64,000 nt of DNA, from NCBI RefSeq assembly GCF_042242105.1, contig NC_092028.1, positions 14,865,338 to 14,929,337 on the forward strand, read 5' to 3'. The stretch is from Pempheris klunzingeri. Its lineage: Eukaryota; Chordata; Actinopteri; Acropomatiformes; Pempheridae. The notes beneath the pieces were generated by a model that saw only the letters and a list, made by a program, of their open reading frames with translations, made no database searches and was not told the origin of the DNA. Numbering within the stretch: the first letter of the stretch is position 1; each line of letters opens with the position of its first letter. Positions 27,594 through 64,000 of this stretch are shown here, one piece after another. The position numbers were made by a program, and so were the translations under genes.

Positions 27594-27709
27594 TCAATCA
27601 GACATTGTGACCTGCCAGACAATGAGGTGGCTCTGCTCGACCTTGGTGGGTGCTGACTGCTGCCTGGCTGTTGGCTCTGATAAACCGTCCAACTCGCCAC
27701 CTTCATCAC
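27594..27709 (-). CDS. spag9: SPAG9 exon 30 (terminal, stop codon)
   Basis: Encodes [20 protein letters not shown] then [16 protein letters not shown] and TGA. The acceptor is CCTCAG. The end SHLIVWQV followed by a few residues is typical of JIP3/JIP4. Confidence 0.95.
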
Positions 27710-42700: not shown

Positions 42701-45700
42701 CAAAAACGCAGCAGTGGGATGAATTAAAATTGTCGCCCTCCAGGTCCTAACTGCCACAGATACAAGCATAACCCTGACCCACACAGCAAAAATATTTTGA
42801 AGAGATATTTAGCAGAAAGAACAGCGTAATTTTACCTGAGAAAGCATAACCTTTATAATGTCTACTTAGTAAACTGCTTTAAATACTAGAGGGAAGTAAT
42901 TTTCCCTGTGAATTGAAATCACTGAAAATGCACATCATATGATAAAGCTATCATCTGCCTGCATCAAATAGACGATTATTGCTGCTGTGAATATTCATGT
43001 GTTAAATTTAATGATCTCCTGTGACTGCTGCAACGGGGGAACACAAACGTTTGCATATTCATCAATGGTTAAACAGGAGGATGTCTGACAACAGGCATGG
43101 CCTTGTTGGGTGCCTACTAAAATTTGCCCACACGCCTGAGCCTTATCAAAGGCTCTCTATTTTTAAATGGTTCCAAAGCCAAAACTCCTCTATCTTGTAG
43201 CTCTGGCAGGAGGGCTGGAGACACTCAGCCAGGAAATGAGATTATAGCTATTGTATCATTCTCCATATTTCATTGGGGTTTTTTTTTGTACACTGTTGAC
43301 ACATTATTGATCAAGCAGCTAAAACACTTACAGTGTTCAGTAGTGTTTAATATTCAAGTATCAAATAATTTAAAATTGAATAATGATATGATCAGGTGAC
43401 ACAATAATTTTTAATCATTTAAGATAATCAATTCAATTTAACAATTTAACAACCACACAGGATGGGCTGATCTTTATTCCTGTCCACTTCTTCTATCTAG
43501 TTGTTACTAGCTGTTGGGGCCGGGCTGTTGTGTGAGTGAGGACAAAAGCGCTCATTCCAAAAGTTACATCACTCGTGCTTGAAATGTTCGAATTTTCTAC
43601 AGTGTAACATTTCCATTCTCTCCGATCTCTCTTTCTTCATCAGTGCTTGAATTTGCTGTAGCGACCAATGGAGAGCGAGCTGTGTCCTGCATGCTGTTCA
43701 GTGGTTTAACAGTTAACAAGGGTTCCCTTTAAATACACCGCACAGTTCATAATGCAGTACTAATAAATATGTCATGTAGATCTCGAGAGCTCACGCACAA
43801 CTTTGCAATATGTATACATTAAGACACAGACTCTTTCAATTTTAGTAAGATATCTTATAGTCTCAACCAGACATGAGTTTACTCTCTGAAGAAAAATCAC
43901 ACTGGAATAAGTCATTCATTTCTACCGACCGTGATAAAAGTTCACACGGAGGAGCCGTCCACAGTCCTACCTTGAGACTAGCGTTGGACCGTGGTTGCGA
44001 TGGGTCAGTGAACCTCCAGCCCTCTGTGCCCAGTGTCTCTGCCCTGACCTGGGGGTCTGGGGTTAGCAGAGACACCCCACCAGACGATGGGAAGATCCCC
44101 AAAGAAAGAGGCCGCTCTCTCCTGGAGGGCACAAGAAAAAGTGGCATTTGAACACATTTTCTCAGAGGCGCAGTGCACAAATCTTGCATCAGCTGAGCTC
44201 TTGTTAACCATGAAGTGTTTGCTGTAGTAGTGTTTTGATTTGAAGGTACTGATGATTTGTTTTGTATCTCTTAACGTTTAACTTTATATATTATATAAAG
44301 TTAAACGTTAAGAGATACAATATATAAGCACCGAAACTGCCTGTAATCTGAAACTGTGATGCCTTTTTTATGTCTGTGCTCTTTATAAATGTTTCACGAG
44401 CCCTCAAAGATCAGTCCAATTATGAGTTCACAAAAACATGCTCACAGGTTTGTCCATGGTGTTACAAAAGAAAGGGTTCCTCCTGCATGGCTTCACATGT
44501 GTTTCTTTTGCAGCGTTCATGTCATATTGCAGTTGGTCTAATTACAAATTTCAACCATGTAAATAGCTTTCATGTCAAGATTGAAGTCATAATAACGACT
44601 TCGATAACGACAAGATTTTCTGAAAGCTCTAATTTGTTCATGTTGACAACAACTAAAGCAAAAGTGTCTAAAAACTCTGTCAAACTCCGTCACTGACTGT
44701 AATTAAACCCAGATTTAATAGATATGTTGTTATATTGTAAATGCACAGCATTTTAACCCTCTCATGACCAACTATGTAATCATACTGTCTTGATGATGGT
44801 CGTCAATATAGGAATCTTTCCATCTCTAGCATCCATCCCATACGACATGAGCGCAGCAGTGATATAAACTTATCCGTTGTGGTCTCACCTGACTCGGCCG
44901 CCCGTGCCCGACTCCGAAGTCTCGCTAATCTGCTGCAATTTGATTCTCTCTACATGCTCCATATAGTTATGGATCATCTGCAGAAGTCAAACCAAACACC
45001 AAGAGGAAACCAGTGGTTAGCGATTAAAATTCAACATTACCATCATCCTTCCTTCCTCCCCTCATTCTTTCTCACCCCCTACCTCTGTGTGTCGCTGATG
45101 GAGGGAGTTGAATTCCTTCTTGAGTTCCAGTTCACGCTCTTCTAACCTGCCAACTGAAACAGAATACAACACTGATCAATTAAAGGTATTACACGACACA
45201 GGACAACACACCATGCTTTGTCTATCAACTATCTGTTAAATGATAATTAAAGAAGCAAAGAACTGGACATGACAAATTCAAAATCGTGCAAACAGGATCT
45301 GAGAATCCTTACCAGTGAAACAATACCTAAGTAGCATGGCTTCACTGCGGGTGCACATGACTTAGCATATCAAGGAACAGTTGCATGTTTTACACGATGT
45401 GCCTTTTCATTTTCGTGCCAAGTGGTAGATAAGAAGATTGATACGACTCTCATGTGTGTACAGTAGATATGAAGTTACTGTTCCTTAAAAAACTTTTAGA
45501 ACTTCATTGTACCTCAATATAGTGCAAACTTGTACATAAAAGAGTGCGCATGTGCCACCAGGCAGACACCGGGACTCAGCAGAGGAGGTAATCTCATTCA
45601 AACAGGTTTCAACGTTGGGCCGATTTACAAAGTAACAAAAACACCTAATCCCCTATTAGTGTGTCGGGTCTAGCATATAAACCACAGAGAGAGCTACTGG

Positions 45701-48700
45701 GGCAGACAGATATACAGTGTAAAGCCTGGATACTATCAATTACAGCAGCTAAAGCCTCTGCATGCTGTGTGGTGATGTCTTTGCCTGTGTGTGCATTTTG
45801 ACATTTGCAGGGGATTTCATTCTGCTATCGTGACTCATCAAATTCATGGAGTCATGCATGAAGTGAAGTGAGGAAGGCTAAAGACGGGAGAGATGGCTGT
45901 AGTCTGAAGTACATCCCTCCTCTGTGTGTGTGTGTGTGTGTATTAGTGAAAGCACTGGAAAGCACTGTGTGTGTTCAACGTGCGGCTGAACATTAAGACA
46001 ATGATATTGATTGCGTTAATAATATATTTACATTAAAAAAACTGTTCAACACTGACAAAACAATACCTTTCTGTCAGTAACATCCACTAGCAGGATATGT
46101 AACACAAAACACCACTTCTATGGTGTTACCAGCAGTGTTTCCTGGATCAGTGTGAGGAGCTGTGTAATCAGCCATTAAGGTCCATTCAATTAAATGTCAT
46201 AAATCTGCTGGGAAACCGGTATGAGAGACGTATGTCGGTGTATAAATCTTCATCATCAGATTGTTGGATGCCCTTTGCTTGACAAATGCAGTAGAAGTTT
46301 CTGAGACCGTATAAAAAATATTACCTAATCCTATTTTACTTTATTTGTAGGAGTGTCCCACATCCCAAAAATCACTGAAAATCTGAATATGATGACGAAA
46401 GTGAATGAATAAAAATGAGAGTTTCAATCGTCTCTAATGGGAGACACAAGCTAAAAATGCATCTGATTGATTACTGGTCTCTTCAGTGAGAGGCAAGGGA
46501 AAGTAAAGCAGGAGGACGGCTTAAAATGTGAACTACACTGCTGTTACCTATTAACAGTGGCCTCATTAACTCTGCAGTAGCTGTGGACTATGTCCTAAAT
46601 GCCTCTGAACGCAATCAGCTCAGGAGCTGCAACACACAATAATGAGTGAATGATTTACTATTTACCGGGAGAGGCAGACAGTCAACTGAACCCACTGACT
46701 AGTTGTATGAAAGATCTCCATTTTTCCAAATTGGACTTACGGCTGGTAATGGAGCAAAATTACAAAATGATTTATTCAATTTTCCAGAGTTAAATTTAAA
46801 TCGTAGCACTGAGCTACTTGTGTTTTCCTTATTAATGCTTCCTCTAAAAGTAAGATATGAAAGAAATTCATGTTGGCATTTTCATCCCCATCAAAGCTTT
46901 GCGTGTGTGAATGAATGACTCACTCTAACCAGCTGTGTTGCCTACTGAACCAGTCGCAGTGTGAATTCACTATTTCCAACAAGACCGCATTTAAGAGCCA
47001 ATCACTTTCTGTTCCTTAATCCACCAATAAGATGGGCGGTAATGCACTGCCGCATTAGGAGGATGGGAATAACAGAAATCCTTTAATCCCATTACTGTTA
47101 CCCCCGCAAAGAGAGAAAGAGCGCGAGTGTGTATGGTTGTGTAAGTGTGTGCGTGTGTCGAGACAAAAAGTAGGCATGACAAGCCATTAGAGAGACATCA
47201 AACTAGTGAGGAACGTTATTTATAGAGAGTAAAAAACGGCAGGACACAGAACAGCCTTGTACGTGGGTACAAACAGATAAATTAAATGTGTGTGTGTGTG
47301 TTTTTGTGCTTACTCTGGTCTGCGTAGTTCTTGATCTTGAGTTCCAGTTGCCGGGAGTGGGACTCCATTCTGTCCACATGGTTCTGCAGGTCCTTCTTAT
47401 CCTGTTCATGAGTGTCCTCAAACTCAATGAACTTCTACTCAGGAACACACGCACACACACACACACACACACAGAGCTTGGTCAGACTCATTGGCACTTA
47501 ATTAAAAACACATCAAAATTAATTTGTCGTTAATGGCCGGATGCTGTTTAAGGCGATAGCCAGAGAATTTCCTGCCGTGACTGTATGAGCTGTCTAATGC
47601 CAAGTTCCAAACATGAGCCTGCTAGTGATGTTACAAACGGTAAACAAACATTTAATGCATCAGCAAATGTTTTTGATTGCAACACAAGAGCAGAATTAGT
47701 ATAATGATAATCTGGAATAGAGGGACAGGATTTTCTGGTCCCTCCGAGTTTCCTTCCAGGAGGACCACTGATCGGAAGTGATCGGTGTGGGTGAGTGTGA
47801 GTGTGTGTCAGTGTCCACATCCTGTCCAGCTGAGCAAGCCAAGGCCCTAATGTGGCTGCCCTTCCTGCTCTTACTATACTATACTAGACAAATAAGGGAA
47901 TTATCTTATCTTATGAACATGTGTTCTGTGAATTAAAAGTGTTTTTTTTTTTTTTAAATGACTCTAAAATTCTTCCACACATCAAATGTTTCAGTATTTT
48001 CTGGCATTTTACAAACTATGCAATTAATCACTGGAGAAAATAATCGTCTGATTGAATGTTGATGAAACTAATCATTAGTTGCAGCCCTAAAATAATGCCA
48101 CTGGCAGTCCCATTGTCATTAAGAGCAATAACTGAGGGTATAGATGCGTGTAAGAAAAAGAGAAACCACAATGAAGGTTTAGAACCAATGAGAAACTGGA
48201 GATGGGCTGCGAATTACTTTTAATGATCTGAACAGCTGGCTCGGTACCTCAGACTTTCACACAGTCATCAATATCACAAGGAATGTTTACTTTTATGTAT
48301 ATATTGTCAAATTGCATTAAATACTAGAGGAAACAGAGCTGCAATAATGACAGAACAGGCAGCACGATGACACCATCTGTTTCAGGTCTTTGTGAAATAG
48401 TGAGTTAAGAAGCAGGGAACGGTCAATCCAGCCAGTAAAGGGTGAAAAAAAGTCAATATATGTGAAAGCTTGAGCTGTTCATGGCATGTGGTAGCAGCCA
48501 TGAAGCAGACTGATGGTCGGTCTGTGACGCCAGAATTTGAGACTTAAATCAAAGTCAGGAAAGAAGAAAAAAAAAAAATGCAAAGCTGAGGAACGTTCCT
48601 TTTCTGTTAGTTCCTCACAAAGGATCACATGACCTGGAAGTAATACCTTGCCTTTCCACGAGGCTCAGAGCGCCCCTGTTCACTCCTCCTCAGGGGTGTG

Positions 48701-51700
48701 GACAAAGACTTTTTCCCAGGACAAACCCGTGAACACTGCAGCACATTTATGGTTGACATTAAGTGTTGTAACAATGACGGGTACACTGGTATTGTCAGTG
48801 TGCATGCGTATGAGTGTTTGCGAGCCTGGCTGTCACTCTGCTTCAGTGTCACTGTGTGTAAAGAGGGGGTCTACACGTCCACAGCACACTGGGCCAGTGT
48901 CCCTGCTGTCCCGCTGCCCCGAGTCAAAGAGGCAAGCTGGGACAGAAGGTCTGAGTCACATCACATAGCCCTTCATGTGATCGCTCAGGGCCAGGAGGCA
49001 GCAGATTCACACATCTGAGGCAAAAAACCTCAACCAGAACACAAGATCCCTAATGCCCATACACACACACACAACAGGGTTTCTACTTTTGTTGGCAGTG
49101 TCTGATCAAGTAATGACTGAGAGCTGTTGCTGCAAAATGCAACCATGTGGTTGCTACTTGTTCCACAAAATAAACTTTGTCTACTAAGTCAAAGCCACTT
49201 TACTAGTCATGATAAGCACAACTCAGCCTGTGAAAATGGTTGAATAATGGCCTCTGTAGCTCTGGAGGAGATTTCTAAAGTCTGAAAAAAGAATTACCTA
49301 TAATTATACAAACGACATACAGTGGGGCAAAAAAGTATTTAGTCAGCCACCAATTGTGCAAGTTCTCCCACTTAAAAAGATGAGAGAGGCCTGTAATTTT
49401 CATCATAGGTACACTTCAACTATGAGAGACAGAATGGGGGGACAGAATCCAGGAAATCACATTGTAGGATTTTTAATGAATTTATTGGTAAATTCCTCAG
49501 TAAAATAAGTATTTGGTCACCTACAGACAAGCAAGATTTCTGGCTCTCACAGACCTGTAACTTCTTCTTTAAGAGGCTCCTCTGTCCTCCACTCGTTACC
49601 TGTATTAATGGCACCTGTTTGAACTTGTTATCAGTATAAAAGACACCTGTCCACAACCTCAAACAGTCACACTCCAAACTCCACTATGGCCAAGACCAAA
49701 GAGCTGTCAAAGGACACCAGAAACAAAAGTGTAGACCTGCACCAGGCTGGGAAGACTGAATCTGCAATAGGTAAGCAGCTTGGTGTGAAGAAATCAACTG
49801 TGGGAGCAATTATTAGAAAATGGAAGACATACAAGACCACTGATAATCTCCCTCGATCTGGGGCTCCACGCAAGATCTCACCCCGTGGGGCCAAAATGAT
49901 CACAAGAACGGTGAGCAAAAATCCCAGAACCACACGGGGGGACCTAGTGAATGACCTGCAGAGAGCTGGGATCAAAGTAACAAAGGCTACCATCAGTAAC
50001 ACACTACGCCACCAGGGACTCAAATCCTGCAGTGCCAGACGTGTCCCCCTGCTTAAGCCAGTACATGTCCAGGCCCGTCTGAAGTTTGCTAGAGAGCATT
50101 TGGATGATCCAGAAGCGGATTGGGAGAATGTCATATGGTCAGATGAAACCAAAATAGAACTTTTTGGTAAAAACTCAACTTGTCGTGTTTGGAGGAGAAA
50201 GAATGCTGAGTTGCATCCAAAGAACACCATACCTACTGTGAAGCATGGGGGTGGAAACATCATGCTTTGGGGCTGTATTTCTGCAAAGGGACCAGGACGA
50301 CTGATCCGTGTAAAGGAAAGAATGAATGGGGCCATGTATCGTGAGATTTTGAGTGAAAACCTCCTTCCATCAGCAAGGGCATTGAAGATGAAACGTGGCT
50401 GGGTCTTTCAGCATGACAATGATCCCAAACACACCGCCCGGGCAATGAAGGAGTGGCTTCGTAAGAAGCATTTCAAGGTCCTGGAGTGGCCTAGCCAGTC
50501 TCCAGATCTCAACCCCATAGAAAATCTTTGGTGGGAGTTGAAAGTCCGTGTTGCCCAGCGGCAGCCCCAAAACATCACTGCTCTAGAGGAGATCTGCATG
50601 GAGGAATGGTCCAAAATACCAGCAACAGTGTGTGAAAACCTTGTGAAGACTTACAGAAAACGTTTGACCTCTGTCATTGCCAACAAAGGGTATATAACAA
50701 AGTATTGAGATGAACTTTTGTTATTGACCAAATACTTATTTTCCACCATAATTTGCAAATAAATTCATTAAAAATCCTACAATGTGATTTCCTGGATTCT
50801 TTCCCCCCATTCTGTCTCTCATAGTTGAAGTGTACCTGTGATGAAAATTACAGGCCTCTCTCATCTTTTTAAGTGGGAGAACTTGCATAATTGGTGGCTG
50901 ACTAAATACTTTTTTGCCCCACTGTATGTATAACAGAAAGACTGTAAGTGAAAGATGTGGGTGTTCAGCAGGCATGGAGGGTTTCATGAGAAATGCTACC
51001 AGGAAATATCGGGGCTAATGTTTTTGAAGCCTGAACCGTAAGCACGAAGGATATCTATTTTTTTTTTTATCTCTCTCATAAGACCCCCAACTTTATGGAA
51101 ATACACTATTCAATCAGTGGAGTGCCACTTTAATTGAGAGGTACTGACTTAAAACCACAGTTTGTGGCCACTGGATAAACCTCCTCTCTGCTTCTGGGGG
51201 CCAGGGGCAATCCAAGGCCCTCAATGCACAGTGACTGTTTTAAATACTAGGACACTGTGGGGTGTTTTTTGCCCAACATATCTGCTTGGGTGAGTAACTG
51301 ACATGGATAAAGTGATTTGCACGGGAGTGAATGGTGGCGATGAAGATCTGCTGGCAGTGCAGGCTGTTGGCAGCAGTTGTGGATCCAAATAATATGATCA
51401 GCTTAGAGTACAGTTTAGGTGAAGCTGCAGCTTTGTGACATTTATTACTTTCTATGCTTACGTCTCCCTATTTTACGCAAATGTGTCGCCCTTCTGACTG
51501 CTTGTCTGTCTCCTTCAGTGTTTTTTTTTTTTAACTTATGTTACAGTGATGCCCCAAACTGCTGAGTCACTTCACCTGCCTTTCCTCCAGTCAAGGTCTC
51601 ACTGGGCTCAGACGTGACTTCACTATCTGATGCAATAGGCGAGCTGGTAGATTATAGGAGTGTTTGGTAGAGAGCTGGTTATGTTTGGCCTGTTAGAAAG

Positions 51701-52301: not shown

Positions 52302-52753
52302 TTTAGTCCCTCTCCCTTTCAGCAGACAGCACCAGTGTGGCTTCTTCCGCGTCACCCCGCCACTATGAATACCGGCTAATAGAAAGCAGCGTTTCTTCAA
52401 ATAAACGTACACATTGAGGACATTTCACGGCTGGACTATTACGATGCAAGACAGGCTACGTGGATGGATGTCTTCCTCTTTTTCCCTCACTTGTTCAATG
52501 CTGCCTTCAGGTGCCCTTCCAAAGCTTCTAATTCCCAGATTCATTGGGCTAAATCGACCGCGTAGTCCCGGCGGATATGTTTTATCGTATGGCAGTAAGA
52601 TATACAAGCTATGTTCCCATAACTGAAAACATAATAATCTATTCATAAAGATTGGTCACTTTGATTTTTTTTCCGCACCCGCTTGGCACCGTAATCCCGT
52701 CATACCCGACGGTACCTGAAGGCACCATCACAACAGCTGAGTTGTTGACCAGA

Positions 52754-52769
52754 TCACGTGATGACGTCA
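52754..52769. promoter_or_regulatory. Adjacent E-box (TCACGTGA) and CRE (TGACGTCA) in the SPAG9 5' flank
   Basis: Two 8-bp palindromes lie end to end about 450 bp upstream of the SPAG9 ATG. TCACGTGA is a bHLH/MiT-type (CLEAR-like) core and TGACGTCA is a full CREB/ATF site. The same 16 bp are intact in the duplicated flank at 61,723-61,738. Confidence 0.5.
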
Positions 52770-52889
52770 CATCGTGCCAATAACGTAAGTCACCGACACG
52801 CTGACGGCATGTACATAGTCTTATACTAAATTATTTTCCAGCTCAAAAGGAGAGAAAAGGAACTATAGCAACAAACAAAAACAAGAAAT

Positions 52890-53232
52890 AAATTCCTTAC
52901 GTTTCTCACAGCATTTTATTGCAGTACCAATCTATGACAAAACACTGCATTTGTTAAAAACTGTTTGACAAATAAAGCAACGTACAGGAGGAGGTTAATA
53001 TATCATGGCTTAATATTGTGTATTAATTCCCATGCTTATGCATTAAGCTCACATGCTTACACACTTTGGTTTTCCATACAAGTAAGCATTTTTTTAGCAC
53101 ATCCAGGTTTATAGTTGATAGTACATGAATCACGCAATAATGAAACCCCCCAAACTGCACCATGCAGATCACAGTTCAAAGTTGTTTTTTCATGCCCTGT
53201 TCCTTCAGTATTTGTTTCAGCAGTATGTGGGT
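52890..53232 (-). other. IFI44-like copy A 3'UTR with AATAAA
   Basis: Non-coding stretch after the stop, ending with AATAAA at 52,915-52,920 on the minus strand. The duplicate signal is at 61,822-61,827. Confidence 0.6.
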
Positions 53233-53394
53233 CTACAGGTTGCTCAGGTAGTCTTCTCCAAAGGTGATCATGTGTCTCAGTGCAGCCAGTATCTGAGTAT
53301 CCATGTCTTCGCTCATGCTGGTTGATGAATCATAGTTCTTCACAAGAAAGATGCAGTTCAGTGGGATTCCCAGCCACACGTGCACTTCGTCAAC
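53233..53394 (-). CDS. IFI44-like copy A, terminal exon
   Basis: Encodes [20 protein letters not shown] ... [16 protein letters not shown] and TAG. The clearest family match of the gene. Confidence 0.88.
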   Translation of the reverse strand, partial: VDEVHVWLGIPLNCIFLVKNYDSSTSMSEDMDTQILAALRHMITFGEDYLSNL

Positions 53395-56352
53395 CTAAGT
53401 TTTAAAGTAGCAGCATTTCAATTGGTCAGTAATTACAAAGTGGTGATCAAAGGAGAGTTTTGCACTTAAATTACAGTCCAAAAGAACAAATGTAAAAATG
53501 CCTTAAAGAAACTTACCAGTTCCTTCAGGTACTTGCTCCAATAGGCATTCTTTATGTCTCCTTGTGTACAAGAACAAGCTTCATCAATTCTGGTGAGAAT
53601 CACCATTTGGGGAATTCCTGCAAATACAAGAACTAAATCAGTATTTTAAAGAGACAGTTCACCCCAAAGTCAAAAATACTTTTCCTCTTACCTATAGTGC
53701 TATTTATCCATCTGGATCATTTTGTTTTTTTTGTATCTACTCATGGACGAGAGTCTAGTTCCTGTGACAGCGTCGGATGTAAAGTGTGATGGTGTCCTCC
53801 TCGGCTGAGCTGTAATGTTAACCAGCTCAGAGGTTCTAGGTGAGTTAGCAGCCACAACGACTACCTTCTCGTTCATGAGTAGATGCGCGATGAGACAGTT
53901 GGTAGGTGCAGTTCAGGAGAAAATAGTTCCTACATGAAACTGCTCACAGCAACGTGTAGGGATTATTTTGAGGAACAGGGTCATGATTTCTGGAAAGAGA
54001 CATTGCAGTTGAATTTTGCAAATTGTTTTTTTTTCGTTTTATGGAGCTTTGAGCATAACAAGTTGTCTGCCATCCCAGCTACATTGTATTTGAGAGAAGG
54101 CAGACATCTCTACTGTTGATATCCCCAAAACCCCAGCAGCTCACAACAAAACGATCTAGTCAGATAAATAGGAATACAGGTAAAATATGTATTTTTGATT
54201 TGGGAATGAGCTGTCCCTTTAAGTAAACAGTAAATGGTCTGTACTTGTACTCGACCACTTAAAGTGCTTTTACACTACATTTACATTCATCCATTCACAC
54301 ATCATTCATACAGGAGGAATCTAAGCTCTATTCTCTCACACACTGAAGCTACGCCTCAAGACCAAGTTGGGGTTCAGTGTCTTGCCCAAAGACACTTTGA
54401 CATGCAGACATGAAGGAGCAGATGTTCAGATTGATAGACGACCTGCTCTACAGCCACCCTGTTTGCTTTTTATTTCATCAGTGTGGCACCATTACTCCAC
54501 AAAGAGTAATAAACATTGTGATGTCAGCTCTTACCGATTTCCGAGGCTGCCAGTCTGACGTCTCTCATCTTCCTCTTAACATCGTCACTCATTATAGATA
54601 CTGAGTCGGCAGCGATGACACTGACCAGAACATGAACTCTGTCATTCAGATTGGGAGATGAGTTGTAACCTTGATCCTTCTCTGTCAGTGGATGTCCAGG
54701 TTTGAACTAGAAAAAAATAAAATACGGTGAAAAAAATTAATGTGACAATTAATGGGGGTTTGTTTTTGAACATGCAATGCATTGCAAGATGTGGAGATGT
54801 GCTTAATGGTATGCTGTGGAGTTTCTGAAAAGTGGGTCCCCATTTTGTTGGTTTGCTTTTTGCAGTTGTAAAAATGGTCGTAAACAATGCAGGATCCAAA
54901 CTTTCATGAAAAAGTTTGTAATTGTTGAATGGAAAAGGAAATGCACTGATTGTTTTAGTAAAACCCCAAGAATACACACATTGTGTTTGTTCACAGGAAC
55001 TTTCCACAGGACACCTCTGAATAATGACAAGGCTCAAAAGATTGTACCTGGTAACCTTCTGTGACGTGTCCCCTCAGGACCGATTTGACGTCTTCCACAT
55101 GAATTCCTCTGTTGATTTTCATCTCATAGCCCATGACGTAATTGAAAGTGAAAGAGTAAAAACTCTCTGGATCCTTGTGGAATTTGTAGGTCGTGTACTG
55201 GAGAGCAGATGGTGCAATTATTTACATTGTTTTAGCAAATCACAGATAAATATGCAATTAACACAACACAAATATCTGCAATTCAACATTCATTTTATTC
55301 AGCAAATGAACAGTGTGACTGTCCCAAATCTGCCTTAAATTTTAGAAAAAAATACTAGAAAAATATTATCTGACTCCAAATACACCTGCCTTAAAAAGAT
55401 ATAAATTCTGACACTCTGTAGGAAACAGGAAACAAACAGCAGACTTCTTGTTCCCTGACATGGTGATATGAAAGTACCTTCATGTTATACATCTGTACAC
55501 TCTGGACTGTCCTTGTCTTGTTCGCCCTGCCTCCACCTGTGCTATGGCTGCCGCTTGCTAATCCTAAATGCCCCTTGTAGAGCCTCTAATATGATCCTTT
55601 TCAGTGTTGAGTTTGCTTCCCATTCTGCTTGTTTCATGTTAAATATGGTCGATATTCCAGCAAATTAAATGCATGCTTTTGCTGCCACTGTCACAACACA
55701 GGTACTTGGTGCAGCACCAGTTGGTGGGGCTGAGATGACGGCACTTTTTTTTACATTTTTGCTACTGGTGCAGTGTCCAGGTCCTGTTCAGAACATAAGT
55801 TCATTGGGACAGGCCTCCTTGTACTGCTGCTTGCAGCATTGTCAACGGGCATGCCTGTTTAAAGTGGGCCGATTGCTTGGTCACTGAAAGACCTTCGTGT
55901 AGAGACCTCGAGAAAGTGCTCATCTGACCAGTTTCACCATCAAAACTGCGCTCGTTTAGATCCTCAGAAATCCACCCACAATGTCTGAAGTCGATATATC
56001 TCAAGATATGTGTCAACTTTTTGATATGTTTTAAACTGAAATAACTGAAATGATTAATTATGACATAATTTGCTTAACATGAATGAGCTGTTCATACCTT
56101 TAGCGTAAAACTGTCCCCACCGAGTGCATCTGTCGAAGCTCGACCAGTAATTTGTTGTTGTAAAACACTGTCGACAGAGTTGATGAAACTGGACTTGCTC
56201 TGTTGTCTCCACCAACAACACCAACACCAACCAGTCAGCAGAAAAACAAATCACTTGAGTTATGTGTTAAAGAGCAGAACTGAACATCGAGGCCACAATG
56301 ACACCACACTGACTTTATGTTTACTCATACTCACTTGGGCAAAGGCCTCCAT
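53233..56352 (-). CDS. Interferon-induced protein 44-like (IFI44/IFI44L family) gene, copy A
   Basis: IFI44-family proteins are interferon-induced cytoplasmic GTPase-like proteins linked to antiviral defence. I read six coding exons on the minus strand, all GT-AG and in phase: 56,335-56,352; 56,098-56,199; 55,048-55,197; 54,535-54,706; 53,517-53,617; 53,233-53,394. They give 234 residues. The C-terminal part ([36 protein letters not shown]) aligns with the human ending SNYSSEWELDP...ALRRMLWAADDFLEDL. KSSFINSVDSVLQ matches the human P-loop end KSSFFNSVRSVFQ, but the glycine part (GPxGAG) was not found. The human protein is about 444 residues; the N-terminal TLDc-like part is absent here. Strong Kozak context (GCCATGG). 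Poly(A) signal AATAAA at 52,915-52,920. Confidence 0.82.
53517..53617 (-). CDS. IFI44-like copy A, exon with [11 protein letters not shown]
   Basis: Encodes [20 protein letters not shown] then IKNAYWSKYLKEL. LTRID is the G4-like position (human LTHVD). Acceptor TTGCAG, donor GTAAGT, exit phase 0. Confidence 0.85.
53646..54222. mobile_element. Teleost MITE-like element in an IFI44-like intron
   Basis: About 577 bp with imperfect terminal inverted repeats (TTTAAAGAGACAGTTCACCC at one end, the inverse of CTTAAAGGGACAGCTCATTC at the other). The internal sequence is of a non-autonomous DNA element common in teleosts. The same insertion is in copy B (about 62,549-63,125), so it predates the duplication. 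Confidence 0.75.
54228..54465 (+). repeat. Dispersed teleost repeat (TAAATGG...CTTGCCCAAAGACAC type)
   Basis: Directly follows the MITE in the same intron. Motifs CACTTAAAGTGCTTTTACAC, CATTCACACATCATTCATAC and TCTTGCCCAAAGACACTTTG are typical of a widespread fish repeat. It is also present in copy B at 63,131-63,368. Confidence 0.65.
54535..54706 (-). CDS. IFI44-like copy A, exon with [12 protein letters not shown]
   Basis: 57 codons plus one base: [20 protein letters not shown] ... [17 protein letters not shown] ... [10 protein letters not shown]. Matches human SLKDRIHCVAFVFDAS...IRRELVNAG. Acceptor ACTAG, donor GTAAGA. Confidence 0.85.
55048..55197 (-). CDS. IFI44-like copy A, exon with central GTPase-like domain
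   Basis: 50 codons starting YTTYKFHKDPESFYSFTFNY and ending RGHVTEGYQ; acceptor CTCCAG, phase 0 both sides. Corresponds to the human RTYSIRDGKDGKYLPFILCDSLG... region; the switch DxxG residues are not conserved. Confidence 0.8.
56098..56199 (-). CDS. IFI44-like copy A, exon with P-loop end (KSSFINSV)
   Basis: 34 codons: SKSSFINSVDSVLQQQITGR then ASTDALGGDSFTLK; phase 0 both sides. The sequence upstream of the acceptor is a G/T-rich repeat where the glycine-rich Walker A codons would be expected. Confidence 0.75.
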
Positions 56353-56854
56353 GGCTGACTAAGATAACCTTAAGGGCAAAATACGCATGTTTAGATACAG
56401 TTAGACAGAGACATTATTATACATTATTTTGTATGAATGTTCATTATCATTACTCAATTGGCATTTTTGTAACATTTTAAGAGAAAGTTAAAGTGTGACA
56501 TGGCAAGACTTACCTGCCATAGATGTAAAGTAAGACATTTACATGTAAATGTGAATGAATTAAAGAAAAGTAAAAGTTACCAAGTTATCAAATTCCTACC
56601 TACGCACAGAGGTATTGTCAGCAAAATCTTTGTATAGAACCAAAAGCAGAGGGTGACAAAAGTAGATTGTTCAATAGAACAATAAATAATAAACTAGTGG
56701 ACAGAAATACAAGACAGGGAGGAGATATATTATTTTTATATTCTTATATACTATTTTGACTTTTAACTTGTTTTTTCACTGTTTGTTTTTATCTGTGTGT
56801 TGTACTGTGTCCTTGAGTGCTTTGAAAGGCGCCTGTAAATAAAATGTTACTTAC

Positions 56855-56961
56855 TGTTGTTGATGTAGCTCCAGAATGTGCCTCTGCAATATTAACAGGG
56901 AGGCAGTGTTTTTATAGGCTCTCCTACTTCTACTACTACTTCTGCTTAAATTTTCTGTGTC
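56855..56961 (-). promoter_or_regulatory. Proximal IFI44-like promoter with decayed ISRE and non-coding exon 1
   Basis: TATAAAAA on the minus strand at 56,909-56,916; a short non-coding exon would end at 56,855 before GTAAGT. Upstream, the place of the interferon-response element (56,952-56,961) reads GACACAGAAA instead of GAAACAGAAA, and the third GAAA is lost. Splicing to the ATG exon (56,335-56,368, acceptor TTAAG) is plausible. Confidence 0.55.
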
Positions 56962-57303
56962 AGTTGACTTACAATAAATCCATGATGCTTCCACAAAGTG
57001 TCCTGGTTAGACCTTAAACATGATGGAGGAAATGATCCAAGAAGGATGTCAATCTTCCAAGGTGATCAGGGAAGCTTGAAGATATTGACAGGAAAACTCA
57101 GATCAGACAACTTTGCTTTTTTTTTTCTTAAACATTTTAGCGAATCTGGATCAATATTAATCAATTCTGGCGGTGTAATATATGTAGTATATGAATTCAA
57201 AACTACATTTCGCGTCTTCCCGTCACTCAAATAAATTTAGGAAAAGTCAACGGAGAATGAGGTCTGGACATCTTTTACCCAAAGGATGTTTACTCATACT
57301 CAC

Positions 57304-57354
57304 TTCGGCAAAGACCTCCATGGCTGACTAAGATAACCTTAAGGGCAAAATACA
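57304..57354 (-). pseudogene. Second copy of the IFI44-like ATG exon (MEVFAE)
   Basis: Duplicate of 56,335-56,368: acceptor TTAAG, then GTTATCTTAGTCAGCC, ATG at 57,321 and MEVFAE before GTGAGT (copy A: MEAFAQ). No further IFI44-like exons lie between it and copy A, so it is either a stub or an alternative first coding exon that splices into copy A at 56,199. Confidence 0.55.
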
Positions 57355-58205
57355 CGCTTAGATACAGTTAGGCAGAGACATTATTATACATTATCTCATA
57401 TGAATGTTCATTATCATTACTCAAATTGGCATTTTTGTAACATTTTAAGAGAAAGTTAAAGTGTGACATGTAAAGACTTACTTCCTCCCATAGCAGTAAA
57501 GTAAGACATTTACATGTAAATGTAAATGAATTAAAGAAGTAAAAGTTACCAAGTTAACAAATTCCTACCTACGCACAGAGGTATTGTCAGCAACATCTTT
57601 GTTTAGAACCAAAAGCAAAGAGGGTGACAAATGTAGATTGTTCAATAGAACAATAAATAACAAACTAGTGGATAGCAATGTAAGACAGGGAGGAGATATA
57701 AAAACATACAATTTAAACAAGAGGAACAATATATAATATATAAAAGAAAGGGTAAAATATAAAAAAGTATAGTATATTGAGAACTGAGGTTGCTCTGAAT
57801 AAATATATTGCACAGTTGTTGTACATTATAGTGTTGTTACGGTCAGTTTTGCTGGTTTAATGTTTATGTATTTCTTCAGAGGAATCTGAATATGTAGATT
57901 TAGCTAAAAATAAAAAATAATAATGTCATGTCAGTAATGTCAAATCATGCTAAATTTAAGTAGAAAGTCAATATTCACTTTCTACTTCAGTATCTAATTC
58001 AGTATCCAGTGAATAATCAATAGAACAGATGATAACACATTTCTTCTTTAGTGTAAATTTTGTAAAGACACAGACACTAAATTGGCCCAAATAAATGAAA
58101 TGAATAAAGCATTACCCCAAATAAACCAATAGAAATTTAGTTTCACAATCTCAATATCATATTTTACTAATACATCTTAGGAGAGATACAATAGAAAGTC
58201 CTTAC

Positions 58206-58297
58206 TGTTGCTGATGTGGCTCCAGAATGTGACTCTGCAATATTAACGGGGAGGGAGTGTTTTTATAGGCTCTCCTCTTACTTTCATTTTCTGTTTC
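58206..58297 (-). promoter_or_regulatory. Distal IFI44-like promoter with intact triple-GAAA ISRE and TATA box
   Basis: On the minus strand, GAAACAGAAAATGAAA lies at 58,282-58,297: three GAAA units each spaced by two bases, the classic IRF/ISRE arrangement. TATAAAAA follows at 58,260-58,267, then a short non-coding exon with donor at 58,206/58,205 (GTAAGG). It is homologous to the proximal promoter at 56,855-56,961 but better preserved. Confidence 0.7.
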
Positions 58298-58850
58298 AGA
58301 TGACTTACAATAAATCCATGATGCTTCCAGGAACTGTCCTGGTTGGACCTTAAACATGATGGAGGAAATAATCCAAGAATGATGTCAATCTTCCAAGGTG
58401 ATCAGGGAAGCTTGAAGATATTGGCAGGAAAACTCAGACAACTTTTTTTTTCTTTTCAACATTTTAGAGAATTTGGATCAATATTAATAAATTCTGGAGG
58501 TGTAATATATGTAGTATATGAACTAAAAACTACATTTCCTGATTGTTGCTTATTTAATCAGAAATATCACACATTAGTGTTACACCAAGCATAACACAAA
58601 GAAAGTGACTCCTCTCTTTCCCCACCCTCAAAGATGAGCCGTGCTACAGCAGATTCAGTCCAAAAAAAACACATTTATTGTCAGATAGTAAATAAACAAA
58701 ACATTCCACAAAGACATCAAGTAACTTACCAAACTTAACCCTTTCATGCATGAATTATGATAACCTCAGTCAGGGTTTTTTACCAAGCGATTTTATTCAT
58801 CTTTAGGCACAAAAAACAAGGTTTGAACTTTAGTTTTTTCAACCAATATT

Positions 58851-59040
58851 TTCTATGGATCATTTGCAGAAGTCAAACCAAACACCAAGAGGAAACTAGT
58901 GGTTAGCGATTAAACTTCAACATTACCATCATCCTTCCTTCCTCCCTTTCTCCCTTTCTCACCCCCTACCTCTGTGTGTCACTGATGGAGGGAGTTGTTT
59001 TCCTTCTTGAGTTCCAGTTCACGCTCTTCTAACCTGCCAA
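58851..59040 (-). pseudogene. Duplicated SPAG9 fragment: exon 3 copy and an 8-12-nt exon 4 stub
   Basis: 58,970-59,040 is a 71-nt copy of SPAG9 exon 3 with both splice sites kept (TTTCAG, GTAGGG) and one changed codon pair (EFNS to ENNS). The exon 4 copy is cut after about ATGATCCATA, and its acceptor is changed from CAG to CAA. It cannot encode a working SPAG9 part. Confidence 0.88.
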
Positions 59041-59263
59041 CTGAAACAGAATACAACACTGATCAGTTAAAGGTATTACACGACACAGGACAACACACCA
59101 TGCTTTGTCTATGAACTATCTGTTAAATGATCATTTAAGAATTCAATTAAATTAAAGAAACAAAGAACAGCAAATGACAAATTCAAAATCTTGGATCTGG
59201 ACGGTAAAATCCTCACCAGTGAAATAATACCTAAGTAGCATGGCTTTACTGCGGGTGCACATG

Positions 59264-59520
59264 ACTTAGCATATCAAGGAACAGTTGCATGTTTTACACG
59301 ATGTGCCTTTTCACTTTCGTGCCAAGTGGTAGATAAGAAGATGCGACTCTCATGTGTGTACAGTAGATATGAAGTTACTGCCAGCAGCAGTGCTAGCTTA
59401 GCATAAAAACTGGAAAGAGGGAGAAACTTGCCAGCCTGATGCCATCCAGAGTACCGTGGCCTCAACTGTCCACCACAAAGCAAATAAAAACATCACACAA
59501 ACTGTTCCTTAAAAACTTTT
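59264..59520 (-). repeat. Teleost dispersed repeat, fuller copy
   Basis: On the minus strand it reads ...TTTATGCTAAGCTAGCACTG ... ACATGAGAGTCGC ... AACTGTTCCTTG, the pattern of a fish repeat also seen at 15,360-15,735 and 16,960-17,265. The counterpart at 45,360-45,490 lacks the 124 bp corresponding to 59,381-59,504. Confidence 0.65.
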
Positions 59521-59946
59521 AGAACTTACTTTTAGAAGGTACTTTTAGTACCTCAATATAGTGCAAACTTGTAAAAAAAAAAGTGTGCATGTGCCACCAG
59601 GCAGACACCAGGACTCAGCAGATAGGGTAATCTTATTCAAACAGGTTCCAACGTTGGGCCGAAGTAACAAAAACACCTAATCCCCTGTCTTAGCCTGTGT
59701 GTGTATTTTGACATTTGCAGGGGAATTCTTTCTGCTATCGTGACTCATCAAATTCATGGAGTCATGTATGAAGTGAAGTGAGGAAGGCTAAAGACAGGAG
59801 AGATGGCTGAAGTCTGAAGTACATCCCTCCTGTGTATGTGTGTGTGCGTATGTGTATTAGTGATGTGCATGTTTGGAAAGCACTGTGTGGAGAAATTCAA
59901 CGTGCGGCTAAACATTAAGGCAATGATATTGATTGCATTAATAATA

Positions 59947-60842
59947 CACTGCCTGTCCAAAAAAAAAAAAGTCATCACCTGGATTTAACTAAGCAAATAG
60001 GTAAGAGCCTTCCATTGGATAATTACTGCAGTGATGAATATGTTTTAACTGGCAACAACTTATTTAACCCTAGCTGATGAGTAGCTTCTCTTTTCTTAAA
60101 CAACCATATTGGAAGACATATCCTGTGGTCGTGGAAAGGGTGAGGGTTTCAGAAGGGTCAAATTATTGGCCTGCATCAAGCAAAGAAAACAACTAAGGAG
60201 ATTGCTGAAACTACTAAAATGGGGTTAAGAACCGTCCAACGCATTATTAAAACACGGAAGGATAGTGCTGAACCATCATTTTCGAGGAAGAAGTGTGGTC
60301 GGAACAAACTCTTGGATGATCGTGATCGGAGATCACTTAAACGTTTGGTGAAATCATATCGTACGAAATCAACAGTGATAGTGAAAGTAAGAGCATTTCC
60401 ACACGCACAATGCAAAAGGGAACTCAAGGGATTGGGACTTAACAGCTGTGTAGCCCTAAGAAAACCACTGATCAGTGAGGCTAATCAGAAAAAAAGGCTT
60501 CAATTTGGTAGGGAGCATAACAATTGGACTCAGGAGCAATGGAAGAAAGTCGTGGTCTGATGAGTCCAGATTTACCCTGTTCCAGAGTGATGGGCATATC
60601 AGGGTAAGACGAGAGGTGGATGAAGTGATGCACCCATCATGCCTAGTGCCTACCGTACAAGCCACTCTCCCATCATCAATACAAGATCTTGGCAGAAAAT
60701 TAATGCAACTCTGGATGGAAATAAATGATGTGACATTGCAGAAGCTTATTGAAATGATGCCGTGGCGAATGTGTGCCGTACTCAAAGCTAAAGATGGTCC
60801 AACGAAATATTAGTGTGCGACTTTATTTTTGGACAGGCAGTG
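59947..60842 (+). mobile_element. Defective Tc1-like transposon in the duplicated SPAG9 intron 3
   Basis: Ends CACTGCCTGTCCAAAAA and its inverse; left flank TA, right flank CA. The region matching 46,014-46,028 is interrupted exactly here. Internal sequence encodes pieces of a Tc1 transposase of a different subfamily from the one at 49,320, with frameshifts and a deleted centre. Confidence 0.88.
60130..60813 (+). pseudogene. Broken Tc1-like transposase
   Basis: The N-terminal HTH part is readable in one frame (GLRTVQRIIKTRKDSAEPSF, then LQFGREHNNWTQEQWKKV). The reading then shifts to a second frame with WSDESRFTLFQSDG (first catalytic D), and the C-terminal tail is LMQLWMEINDVTLQKLIEMM. The segments for the second D and the E are missing. 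Not functional. Confidence 0.85.
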
Positions 60843-61059
60843 CATATTTACATTAAAACACTGTTCAACACTGACAAAACGATACCTTTCTTTCAATAAT
60901 ATCCACTAACAGGATAACAGCTTGTCAAGGTCCGGCAACAAAGCCAACTTTTTGTAATTTAGGAGCCGATTTTAGCACTAATTTAGTGCTTAATAAGTGT
61001 GTGAAGTACAGCTCAGCCAAACTTATGGACATTAATGACAGTCAGCCATAACACTTTCA

Positions 61060-61533
61060 CCAGGACTGAAAACCACTCTTTGGCAGACTGCAGCTCCTGA
61101 GAACAACGGAGTGGTGCCAGAGCTCACGGGGACAGGTATGCAAGAGGAAGAGGTGCAAGCAGAAGAGAGGCAAATGGGCTGGCTGGCTGGTCCAGCTGAG
61201 GGCCAGCAGACCGCCGATTCCGCCACTCTTTCTGGCCAACGTTCGTTCCCCGGATAACAAAATCACTGATCGGGAAAAACTCGTGGAGGTGGACTGTGTG
61301 TGTACGTGAACAAGGACTGGTGCACAAACTGTGAGATGGTTAAAAGCCACTGCTCCGAGGCAAAAGAATATCTGACTGTTAAATGCCGGCCACACTATTT
61401 GCCTCATGAGTTCACAGCTGTGTTCGTCATCATTGTTTACATCCGGCCGAGGGCAAATGCTAACGCTAATGCTAACGACGCATTAAGGGAGCTATATAAT
61501 ACCATTAGCTCACAGCAGACCAAGCACCCGGAA
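61060..61533 (+). mobile_element. LINE (L2/CR1-type) endonuclease-domain fragment
   Basis: Plus-strand translation gives RASRPPIPPLFLANVRSPDN, CTNCEMVKSHCSEAKEYLTV and KCRPHYLPHEFTAVFVI ... LRELYNTISSQQTKHPE, in two frames. This order is typical of the apurinic endonuclease part of fish L2/CR1-clade LINE ORF2. No reverse transcriptase part follows. Confidence 0.7.
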
Positions 61534-61567
61534 ACCAGCGGCATCAGCTCCTTCACCACGTCCTCGT
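61534..61567 (-). pseudogene. 34-bp fragment of SPAG9 exon 1
   Basis: Identical to 52,144-52,177 in exon 1 (codons around VVKELMPLV). On the left it joins a LINE fragment abruptly; on the right it leads, after a gap, into a copy of the SPAG9 5' flank (61,590-61,760). Confidence 0.85.
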
Positions 61568-61589
61568 ATACAGTTTATTATTTCATTTA

Positions 61590-61765
61590 TTATTTTGGTA
61601 GTAAAATATACAAGCTTTGTTCCAATAACCAAAAACATAATAATCTATTCATAAGGATTGGACACTTTGATTTTTTTCCCCACCCAGTTGGCACCATCAC
61701 AACAGCTGAGTTGTTGACCAGATCACGTGATGACGTCACATTGCCGACACGATGACGGCATATAA
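61590..61765. repeat. Duplicated SPAG9 5' flank
   Basis: Homologous to about 52,590-52,810, with short deletions. Shared stretches include CATAATAATCTATTCATAA, ATCACAACAGCTGAGTTGTT and the E-box/CRE pair. Confidence 0.85.
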
Positions 61766-62135
61766 AGGTTTTCTCATTTGGTCAATTAAAGTGTTTTAAT
61801 TCCTTACGTTTCTCACAGCATTTTATTGCAGTACCAATCTATGACAAAACACTGCATTTGTTAAAAACTGTTTGACAAATAAAGCAACGTACAGGAGGAG
61901 GTTAATATATCATGGCTTAATATTGTGTATTAATTCCCATGCTTATGCATTAAGCTCACATGCTTACACACTTTGGTTTTCCAAGTAAGCATTTTTTTAG
62001 CACATCCAGGTTTATAGTTGATAGTACATGAATTTCGCAATAATGAAACCCCCCAAACTGCGCCATGCAGATCACAGTTCAAAGTTGTTTTTTCATGCCC
62101 TGTTCCTTCAGTATTTGTTTCAGCAGTATGTGGGT

Positions 62136-64000
62136 CTACAGGTTGCTCAGGTAGTCTTCTCCAAAGGTGATCATGTGTCTCAGTGCAGCCAGTATCTGAG
62201 TATCCATGTCTTCGCTCATCCTGGTTGATGAATCGTAGTTCTTCACAAGAAAGATGCAGTTCAGTGGGATTCCCAGCCACACGTGCACTTTGTCAACCTA
62301 AGTTTTAAAGTAGCAGCATTTCAATTGGTCAGTAATTACAAAGTGGTGATCAAAGGAGAGTTTTGCACTTAAATTACAGTCCAAAAGAACAAATGTAAAA
62401 ATGCCTTAAAGAAACTTACCTGTTCCTTCAGGTACTTGCTCCTATAGGCATTCTTTATGTCTCCTTGTGTATCAGAACAAGCTTCATCAATTCTGGTGAG
62501 AATCACCATTTGGGGAATTCCTGCAAATACAAGAACTAAATCAGTATTTTAAAGAGACAGTTCATCCCAAAGTCAAAAATACTTTTCCTCTTACCTATAG
62601 TGCTATTTATCCATCTGGATCATTTTGTTTTTTTTGTATCTACTCATGGACGAGAGTCTAGTTCCTGTGACAGCGTCGGATGTAAAGTGTGATGGTGTCC
62701 TCCTCGGCTGAGCTGTAATGTTAACCAGCTCAGAGGTTCTAGGTGAGTTAGCAGCCACAACGACTACCTTCTCGTTCATGAGTAGATGCGCGATGAGACA
62801 GTTGGTAGGTGCAGTTCAGGAGAAAATAGTTCCTACATGAAACTGCTCACAGCAACGTGTAGGGATTATTTTGAGGAACAGGGTCATGATTTCTGGAAAG
62901 AGACATTGCAGTTGAATTTTGCAAATTGTTTTTTTTTCGTTTTATGGAGCTTTGAGCATAACAAGTTGTCTGCCATCCCAGCTACATTGTATTTGAGAGA
63001 AGGCAGACATCTCTACTGTTGATATCCCCAAAACCCCAGCAGCTCACAACAAAACGATCTAGTCAGATAAATAGGACTACAGGTAAAATATGTATTTTTG
63101 ATTTGGGAATGAGCTGTCCCTTTAAGTAAACAGTAAATGGTCTGTACTTGTACTCGACCACTTAAAGTGCTTTTACACTACATTTACATTCATCCATTCA
63201 CACATCATTCATACAGGAGGAATCTAAGCTCTATTCTCTCACACACTGAAGCTACGCCTCAAGACCAAGTTGGGGTTCAGTGTCTTGCCCAAAGACACTT
63301 TGACATGCAGACATGAAGGAGCAGATGTTCAGATTGATAGACGACCTGCTCTACAGCCACCCTGTTTGCTTTTTATTTCATCAGTGTGGCACCATTACTC
63401 CACAAAGAGTAATAAACATTGTGATGTCAGCTCTTACCGATTTCCGAGGCTGCCAGTCTGACGTCTCTCATCTTCCTCTTAACATCGTCACTCATTATAG
63501 ATACTGAGTCGGCAGCGATGACACTGACCAGAACATGAACTCTGTCATTCAGATTGGGAGATGAGTTGTAACCTTGATCCTTCTCTGTCAGTGGATGTCC
63601 AGGTTTGAACTAGAAAAAAATAAAATACAGTGAAAAAAATTAATGTGACAATTAATGGGGGTTTGTTTTTGAACATGCAATGCATTGCAAGATGTGGAGA
63701 TGTGCTTAATGGTATGCTGTGGGGTTTCTGAAAAGTGGGTCCCCATTTTGTTGGTTTGCTTTTTGCAGTTGTAAAAATGGTCGTAAACAATGCAGGATCC
63801 AAACTTTCATGAAAAAGTTTGTAATTGTTGAATGGAAAAGGAAATGCACTGATTGTTTTAGTAAAACCCCAAGAATACACACATTGTGTTTGTTCACAGG
63901 AACTTTCCACAGGACACCTCTGAATAATGACAAGGCTCAAAAGATTGTACCTGGTAACCTTCTGTGACGTGTCCCCTCAGGACCGATTTGACGTCTTCCA
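62136..64000 (-). CDS. IFI44-like gene, copy B (3' exons; 5' part beyond the window)
   Basis: Exons at 62,136-62,297 (terminal, TAG), 62,420-62,520, 63,438-63,609 and a partial exon from 63,951 to the window end. All are open with the same splice sites as copy A. Residue differences from copy A: E to K and S to R in the last exon; C to D, W to R and L to Q in the preceding exon; the 63,438-63,609 exon looks identical. The poly(A) signal is at 61,822-61,827. Whether copy B has a full 5' end and its own promoter cannot be seen. Confidence 0.8.

Follow-up and report, generated by a model that had tools for sequence, protein, structure and literature searches.

The start of SPAG9 and the adjacent IFI44-like gene of Pempheris klunzingeri are found in a tandem array of three units, which was very probably built in two main steps, an old duplication (step 1) and a recent unequal crossing-over (step 2). 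The array begins in the window, i.e., the whole stretch of 64,000 bp that was analysed, and continues into the next 30 kb; coordinates above 64,000 extend the window numbering into this downstream DNA, 94 kb being read in all. The result is a single SPAG9 gene, colinear throughout, alongside three IFI44-like copies (A, B, and C). The units are direct repeats, arranged head to tail, with the same left edge at 44,968, 58,854, and 68,313:

44968..58853: unit 1, 13,886 bp, from the start of SPAG9 exon 4 to the 5' flank and IFI44-like copy A (self-alignment and right-edge mapping)
58854..64000: unit 2, the part within the window (to 68,312 in full), with a SPAG9 fragment and IFI44-like copy B (self-alignment)
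68,313-75,939: unit 3, beyond the window, with IFI44-like copy C and a SPAG9 fragment

Self-alignment of the window and the following 30 kb confirms the repeat reported in the preliminary description and reveals the third unit. That description had the sequence at 44,965 reappearing at 58,851, with a unit of ~13.9 kb and a breakpoint at the start of SPAG9 exon 4; self-BLAST places the correspondence at 44,968 and 58,854, 10 nt inside this exon on the minus strand, and the unit measures 13,886 bp. The order of the pieces in the second unit had also been read correctly. Unit 2 is colinear with unit 1 in 58,854-59,380, 59,501-59,686, 59,686-59,946, and 60,844-60,916 (exon 4 start, intron 3, exon 3, and the start of intron 2), followed by 61,534-61,567 (34 bp of exon 1), 61,596-61,741 (5' flank), and 61,798-64,000 (the IFI44-like gene), with E-values from 6e-10 to 0. 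Units 2 and 3 have the same breakpoint in exon 4, both are without exon 2, and both contain a Tc1-type element and the scrap of exon 1; ~565 bp to the left of the Tc1-type element is absent from unit 3. Among 40 scored of 547 genome candidates, the SPAG9 fragment is found at three places, namely SPAG9 itself, unit 2, and unit 3. Rfam searches show nothing at gathering scores within the window, and Tandem Repeats Finder identifies two short arrays within 43-64 kb. Beyond the array, in the downstream segment L011, there is a reverse transcriptase-like frame (L011:234-944) and a pair of tandem open frames (L011:3690-7790), the products of which presumably resemble MARVEL/myeloid-associated differentiation marker proteins.

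SPAG9 and its derivatives in unit 2 comprise the following features:

27609..52301, minus strand: SPAG9 (JIP4), first codon at 52301, colinear over its length
~52002-52301, ~47315-47434, ~45083-45153, and from 44977 on, minus strand: SPAG9 exons 1, 2, 3, and 4
58854..59946, minus strand: SPAG9 fragment of unit 2 (10 nt from the beginning of exon 4, all of intron 3 and exon 3 as far as kept, and the beginning of intron 2)
59947..60843: Tc1-type element in the SPAG9 fragment, with a TA target; also present in unit 3
61534..61567, minus strand: 34 bp of SPAG9 exon 1 retained in unit 2, 100% identical to 52144-52177

With a human SPAG9 sequence as the query, tblastn matches run colinearly from residue 1 to residue 1315 of 1320, in line with the initial statement that one complete SPAG9 is present. 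Its RH1 domain (PF09744, E = 1.3e-17) is found once in the array. In the fragment of unit 2, exon 3 contains an internal stop. Exon 2 and nearly all of introns 1 and 2, as they now stand in unit 1 (46,098-52,143), are missing, and a mobile element has entered, both as described at the outset; the element is of the Tc1 type (~59,947-60,843). It has 24-bp inverted ends that are 92% alike, and the corresponding site at 46,024 in unit 1 is empty; this element entered the SPAG9 fragment after step 1. A stretch recognised by eye as a piece of a LINE-like open frame (61270-61755) lies between the SPAG9 intron and exon 1 scraps of unit 2, is also found in unit 3, and has no match in Pfam. A Tc1/Sleeping Beauty-type element is located in intron 1 of SPAG9 (49315-50929). 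Its inverted ends measure 205 bp and are 95% alike, a TA flanks it on either side, and an open frame of 361 codons encodes HTH and DDE domains; the element looks complete.

The first junction of the array can be read from a dispersed repeat:

58854..58855: step 1 junction, TA in both parent sequences (from a comparison of the junctions with the two flanks)
58735..58855: dispersed repeat, cut at the junction of units 1 and 2; its continuation, ending at 76,326, is found at the right edge of the array (75,820-76,326)

This repeat stops after 121 bases at both internal junctions (58,855 and 68,314), and the sequence that is cut there resumes at the outer edge, the arrangement that a tandem duplication leaves. 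It is found at 36 further places among 40 scored of 547 candidates. Alignments of 15 of the 16 fetched copies run unbroken across 75,939-75,940, although those of L015 and L021 extend only 13 and 19 bases past this point; in copy L024 both sides are aligned, in two pieces. Eight of the 16 copies end exactly at 76,326. The repeat is cut at the internal junctions and continues across the right end, and the parent sequences have TA in common at the junction, which is direct evidence for step 1. In this step, a break-repair or replication-slip event would have linked SPAG9 exon 4, across a 2-bp TA overlap, to a position ~13.9 kb away within the dispersed repeat. Approximately the first 30% of SPAG9 would thereby have been copied along with the IFI44-like gene next to it, and SPAG9 itself would have remained whole. 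The proposal that an IFI44-like gene was multiplied by carrying along part of its neighbour SPAG9 is upheld. The spare piece of SPAG9 would then have decayed, acquiring the stop in exon 3, the Tc1-type insertion, and the LINE-like piece and losing ~6 kb relative to unit 1 as it is now.

Sequence divergence between the units falls into two age classes. Units 1 and 2 differ by 4.0 to 8.2% substitutions in their SPAG9-derived, mostly noncoding pieces, with the 34-bp exon 1 piece identical, and by 14 of 2,203 positions (0.64%) in the 2,203-bp IFI44-like piece. The aligner matters here, as two of the SPAG9-derived pieces show 30/508 (5.9%) and 14/146 (9.6%) substitutions with a second aligner and 20/500 and 11/146 with the first. 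Counting exon 3 and the 10 nt of exon 4 and leaving out the exon 1 piece, 63 of 1,137 SPAG9-derived positions differ, as against 7 of 1,718 IFI44-like noncoding positions (Fisher p ~1e-18). The SPAG9 parts of units 1 and 3 are similarly distant, with 27/508, 6/73, and 15/146 substitutions. The SPAG9 fragments of units 2 and 3 differ at 5 of 2,100 positions (0.24%) in 59,948-62,048 and at 8 of 543 (1.5%) in 58,839-59,382, together 13/2,643, or ~0.5%. Copies A and B differ at 39 of 5,958 aligned positions (0.65%), divided by stretch into 17/3,301, 21/2,342, and, in the last stretch up to the junction, 1/315, where B and C show 7/314; within 53,795-58,296, A and B differ at 17 of 4,500 positions. 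Over most of the gene, C is ~1.3 to 2.4% apart from both A and B, despite SPAG9 flanks that are 5 to 10% apart. The two steps are thus insufficient to account for these values, and at least one further, earlier homogenising exchange is needed; smaller exchanges between the two steps may have homogenised the copies.

The second step is marked by a change in the relationships among the three copies. Sites informative in three-way comparison, with misaligned or replaced stretches left out, unite B and C against A in 52,891-53,387 (5 sites, versus 1 uniting A and B and none uniting A and C) and A and B against C in 53,663-56,196 (45 sites, versus 2 uniting B and C and 4 uniting A and C). This switch (Fisher p 4e-5) is the pattern expected of a crossover between the first and the last IFI44-like genes, and it maps the probable exchange to a short interval in copy B:

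62235..62314: putative step 2 crossover interval, ~80 bp, in which B turns from C-like to A-like (three-way informative sites)

The middle copy is chimeric and the intervening segment is repeated, as in a product of non-allelic homologous recombination; there is one contrary site, just left of the switch interval (53,314 in A coordinates). Step 2 would accordingly have been a recombination of this kind between two IFI44-like genes, inside the last exon or the last intron, by which the third unit (~8.9 kb) was gained. Such a crossover would make B a chimera, with its 3' end from the C lineage and the rest from the A lineage.

One tract of copy B, adjoining the putative crossover, is predicted by neither step. 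In 53,388-53,662, B has 5 private sites and one three-state site in 215, while A and C mostly agree; only 4 of 2,096 sites are private to B in 53,663-56,196 (Fisher p 9e-5). All four codons changed in this tract now encode a different amino acid; Q221 and K224, as found in B, are the most frequent residues among 119 homologs. The idea that copy A carries private missense changes was rejected, as W214, L221, and E224 of A are also found in C; the states of B at these positions are therefore the odd ones in the array.

Repeated gene conversion among pre-existing copies, with no recent second duplication, would be an unlikely source of the likeness between A and B. It would accommodate the mosaic of AB, AC, and BC sister topologies along the gene, the uneven divergence between SPAG9 fragments 2 and 3, and the shift in A-B divergence at ~53,662, which is equalled in 23 of 2,000 shuffles. 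However, the likeness spans IFI44-like copy A, the junction, and the SPAG9 fragment, as duplication of an 8.9-kb unit predicts, and conversion alone would not easily explain the deletion, Tc1-type element, and exon 1 scrap that are common to fragments 2 and 3 at a divergence of ~0.5%. Less probable still is an assembly artefact in which haplotypes were placed end to end, even though the likeness of A and B exceeds 99% over ~5.6 kb. Each unit has private features (a 176-bp deletion in A, an insertion of ~375 bp in B, and a 60-bp inversion and a single 5' part in C) and the same repeat is cut at both internal junctions, which makes an artefact unlikely; in addition, the SPAG9 divergence is older, and the 94 kb contains no N. 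The assembly, at 645.9 Mb, is larger than the 591 Mb predicted in the genome report that probably describes it (PMC12488967), which would suit an artefact, but this report also describes a phased HiFi plus Hi-C assembly, with haplotype assemblies of 646 and 632 Mb. Finally, the preliminary description explained the window by one 13.9-kb tandem duplication with ordinary later divergence, an account that fits the conserved order and the one common breakpoint within the window but is refuted, and left with scarcely any probability, by the third unit and by adjoining stretches of the same unit pair that are more than ten-fold apart in divergence (63/1,137 versus 7/1,718), the IFI44-like parts having been made alike by a much later event that is best read as an unequal crossover.

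The IFI44-like copies within the window are organised as follows:

53233..56366, minus strand: IFI44-like copy A, a probable pseudogene, with an open 194-aa reading over exons b to e
53233-53394, 53517-53617, 54535-54706, and 55048-55197, minus strand: copy A exons e, d, c, and b
~56098-56196 and 56337-56366, minus strand: remnant of exon 3 and exon 2 of copy A
56196..56198: point at which copy A has lost 176 bp that B retains (~65,101-65,276)
61798..64000, minus strand: in-window part of IFI44-like copy B, with exons e (62136-62297), d (62420-62520), and c (63438-63609) and part of b

When spliced, copy B, including the DNA beyond the window, encodes letter for letter the P. klunzingeri protein P0001, annotated as interferon-induced protein 44-like isoform X2. 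The GTPase fold of the IFI44-like family, with the P-loop GxxxxGKS and a DxxG motif, is found as well. Exons b to e of copy A retrieve 191 proteins with E up to 0.001, and most names among the matches listed (120 of 191) are IFI44 or IFI44-like. The spliced copy A protein matches no Pfam family, and a sequence search of the PDB gives no relative with E < 0.5; the IFI44-like identity thus rests on protein homology and on the exact match of B to P0001. Of the 36 matches to P0001 across the genome, the ones on contig C17 are the three copies (61 to 97% identical), and the others, on C18, C6, and C13, are all at most 51% identical. A second cluster of IFI44-like exons, 35 to 51% identical to P0001, is located at C18:857261-878059; C6 and C13 carry another four and two matches, respectively.

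The 176-bp deletion in copy A, which has a 3-bp GCA overlap, removes the exon 3 acceptor and most of the P-loop that are present in B and C, so that the first half of exon 3 is absent. Judging from the missing splice acceptor and P-loop, copy A is most likely a pseudogene that has lost its function, and the annotation should not count this copy, the one nearest SPAG9, as a gene. The initial count of at least two IFI44-like genes was right in recognising multiple copies; there are three, not two, and the only whole copy within the window is this probable pseudogene. Most of the P-loop of A would have been lost after the exchanges described above, with B and C retaining open full-length frames. 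Copy C, which lies beyond the window, is open throughout and is identical to P0001 at 252 of 274 aligned positions. Copy B keeps the P-loop and has Tyr100 in place of the conserved G3 aspartate, which 115 of 119 homologs possess. It is conceivable, if rather doubtful, that B might be a nucleotide-binding partner of C with altered hydrolysis, under selection for a new role rather than redundant; if so, the crossover would have made a new chimeric immune GTPase.

Upstream of exon 3, the 5' part of the IFI44-like gene is duplicated:

56317..57211, minus strand: R1, one copy of the 5' part (exons 1 and 2 and upstream sequence), with exon 1 ATGGCAG at 56514-56520
57286..58538, minus strand: R2, the other copy of the 5' part, with exon 1 ATGGGAGGAA at 57482-57491
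58282..58297, minus strand: triple GAAANN motif in R2, GAAACAGAAAATGAAA on the gene strand

Matches between R1 and R2 are 92% and 87% identical. The 5' part is doubled in A and B and single in C, where its left part is nearer to R1 and its right part nearer to R2, the arrangement expected after a recombinational deletion. The triple GAAANN motif, presumably IRF/ISRE-like, is found at only three places on both strands of the 94 kb, upstream of A (in R2), B (in R2; 67,360), and C (75,368); at least one such motif appears in 2 of 60 order-1 simulations of 94 kb. In A, TATAAAAA is located ~15 bp downstream of the motif on the same strand. R1 does not contain the motif, and its loss there fits the P0001 transcript, which starts in R2. 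The region of the triple motif is a likely candidate promoter.

The size of the IFI44/IFI44-like family varies among teleosts, e.g., in anchovy and other clupeids, according to one study (PMC13403563). The expansions described there involve the same gene family; here, the copies adjoin SPAG9 and have SPAG9 fragments between them. Literature searches found no paper combining SPAG9, IFI44, and synteny and none on IFI44 gene conversion and paralogs; in those on IFI44 duplication, expansion, and GTPase, this array appears in no title or abstract start among the matches listed. The array described here leaves the knowledge of how gene families grow unchanged. Its value is that a single haplotype displays each copying step (the first junction, the later crossover within the gene, and the loss of one copy) and that a fragment taken along from a neighbour can tell in which order the copies arose.

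Tandem segmental duplication followed by non-allelic homologous recombination, with unequal crossing-over and concerted evolution, is a known process, and the event is of this kind, ordinary in nature, clear, and well resolved. As in other such cases, there is a first junction with a 2-bp overlap, a subsequent homologous exchange, a chimeric middle gene, a conversion-like mosaic, and one decayed copy. Differences from the general case are confined to particulars: the stretch carried along belongs to SPAG9, and truncation of the repeat makes the first junction directly readable.
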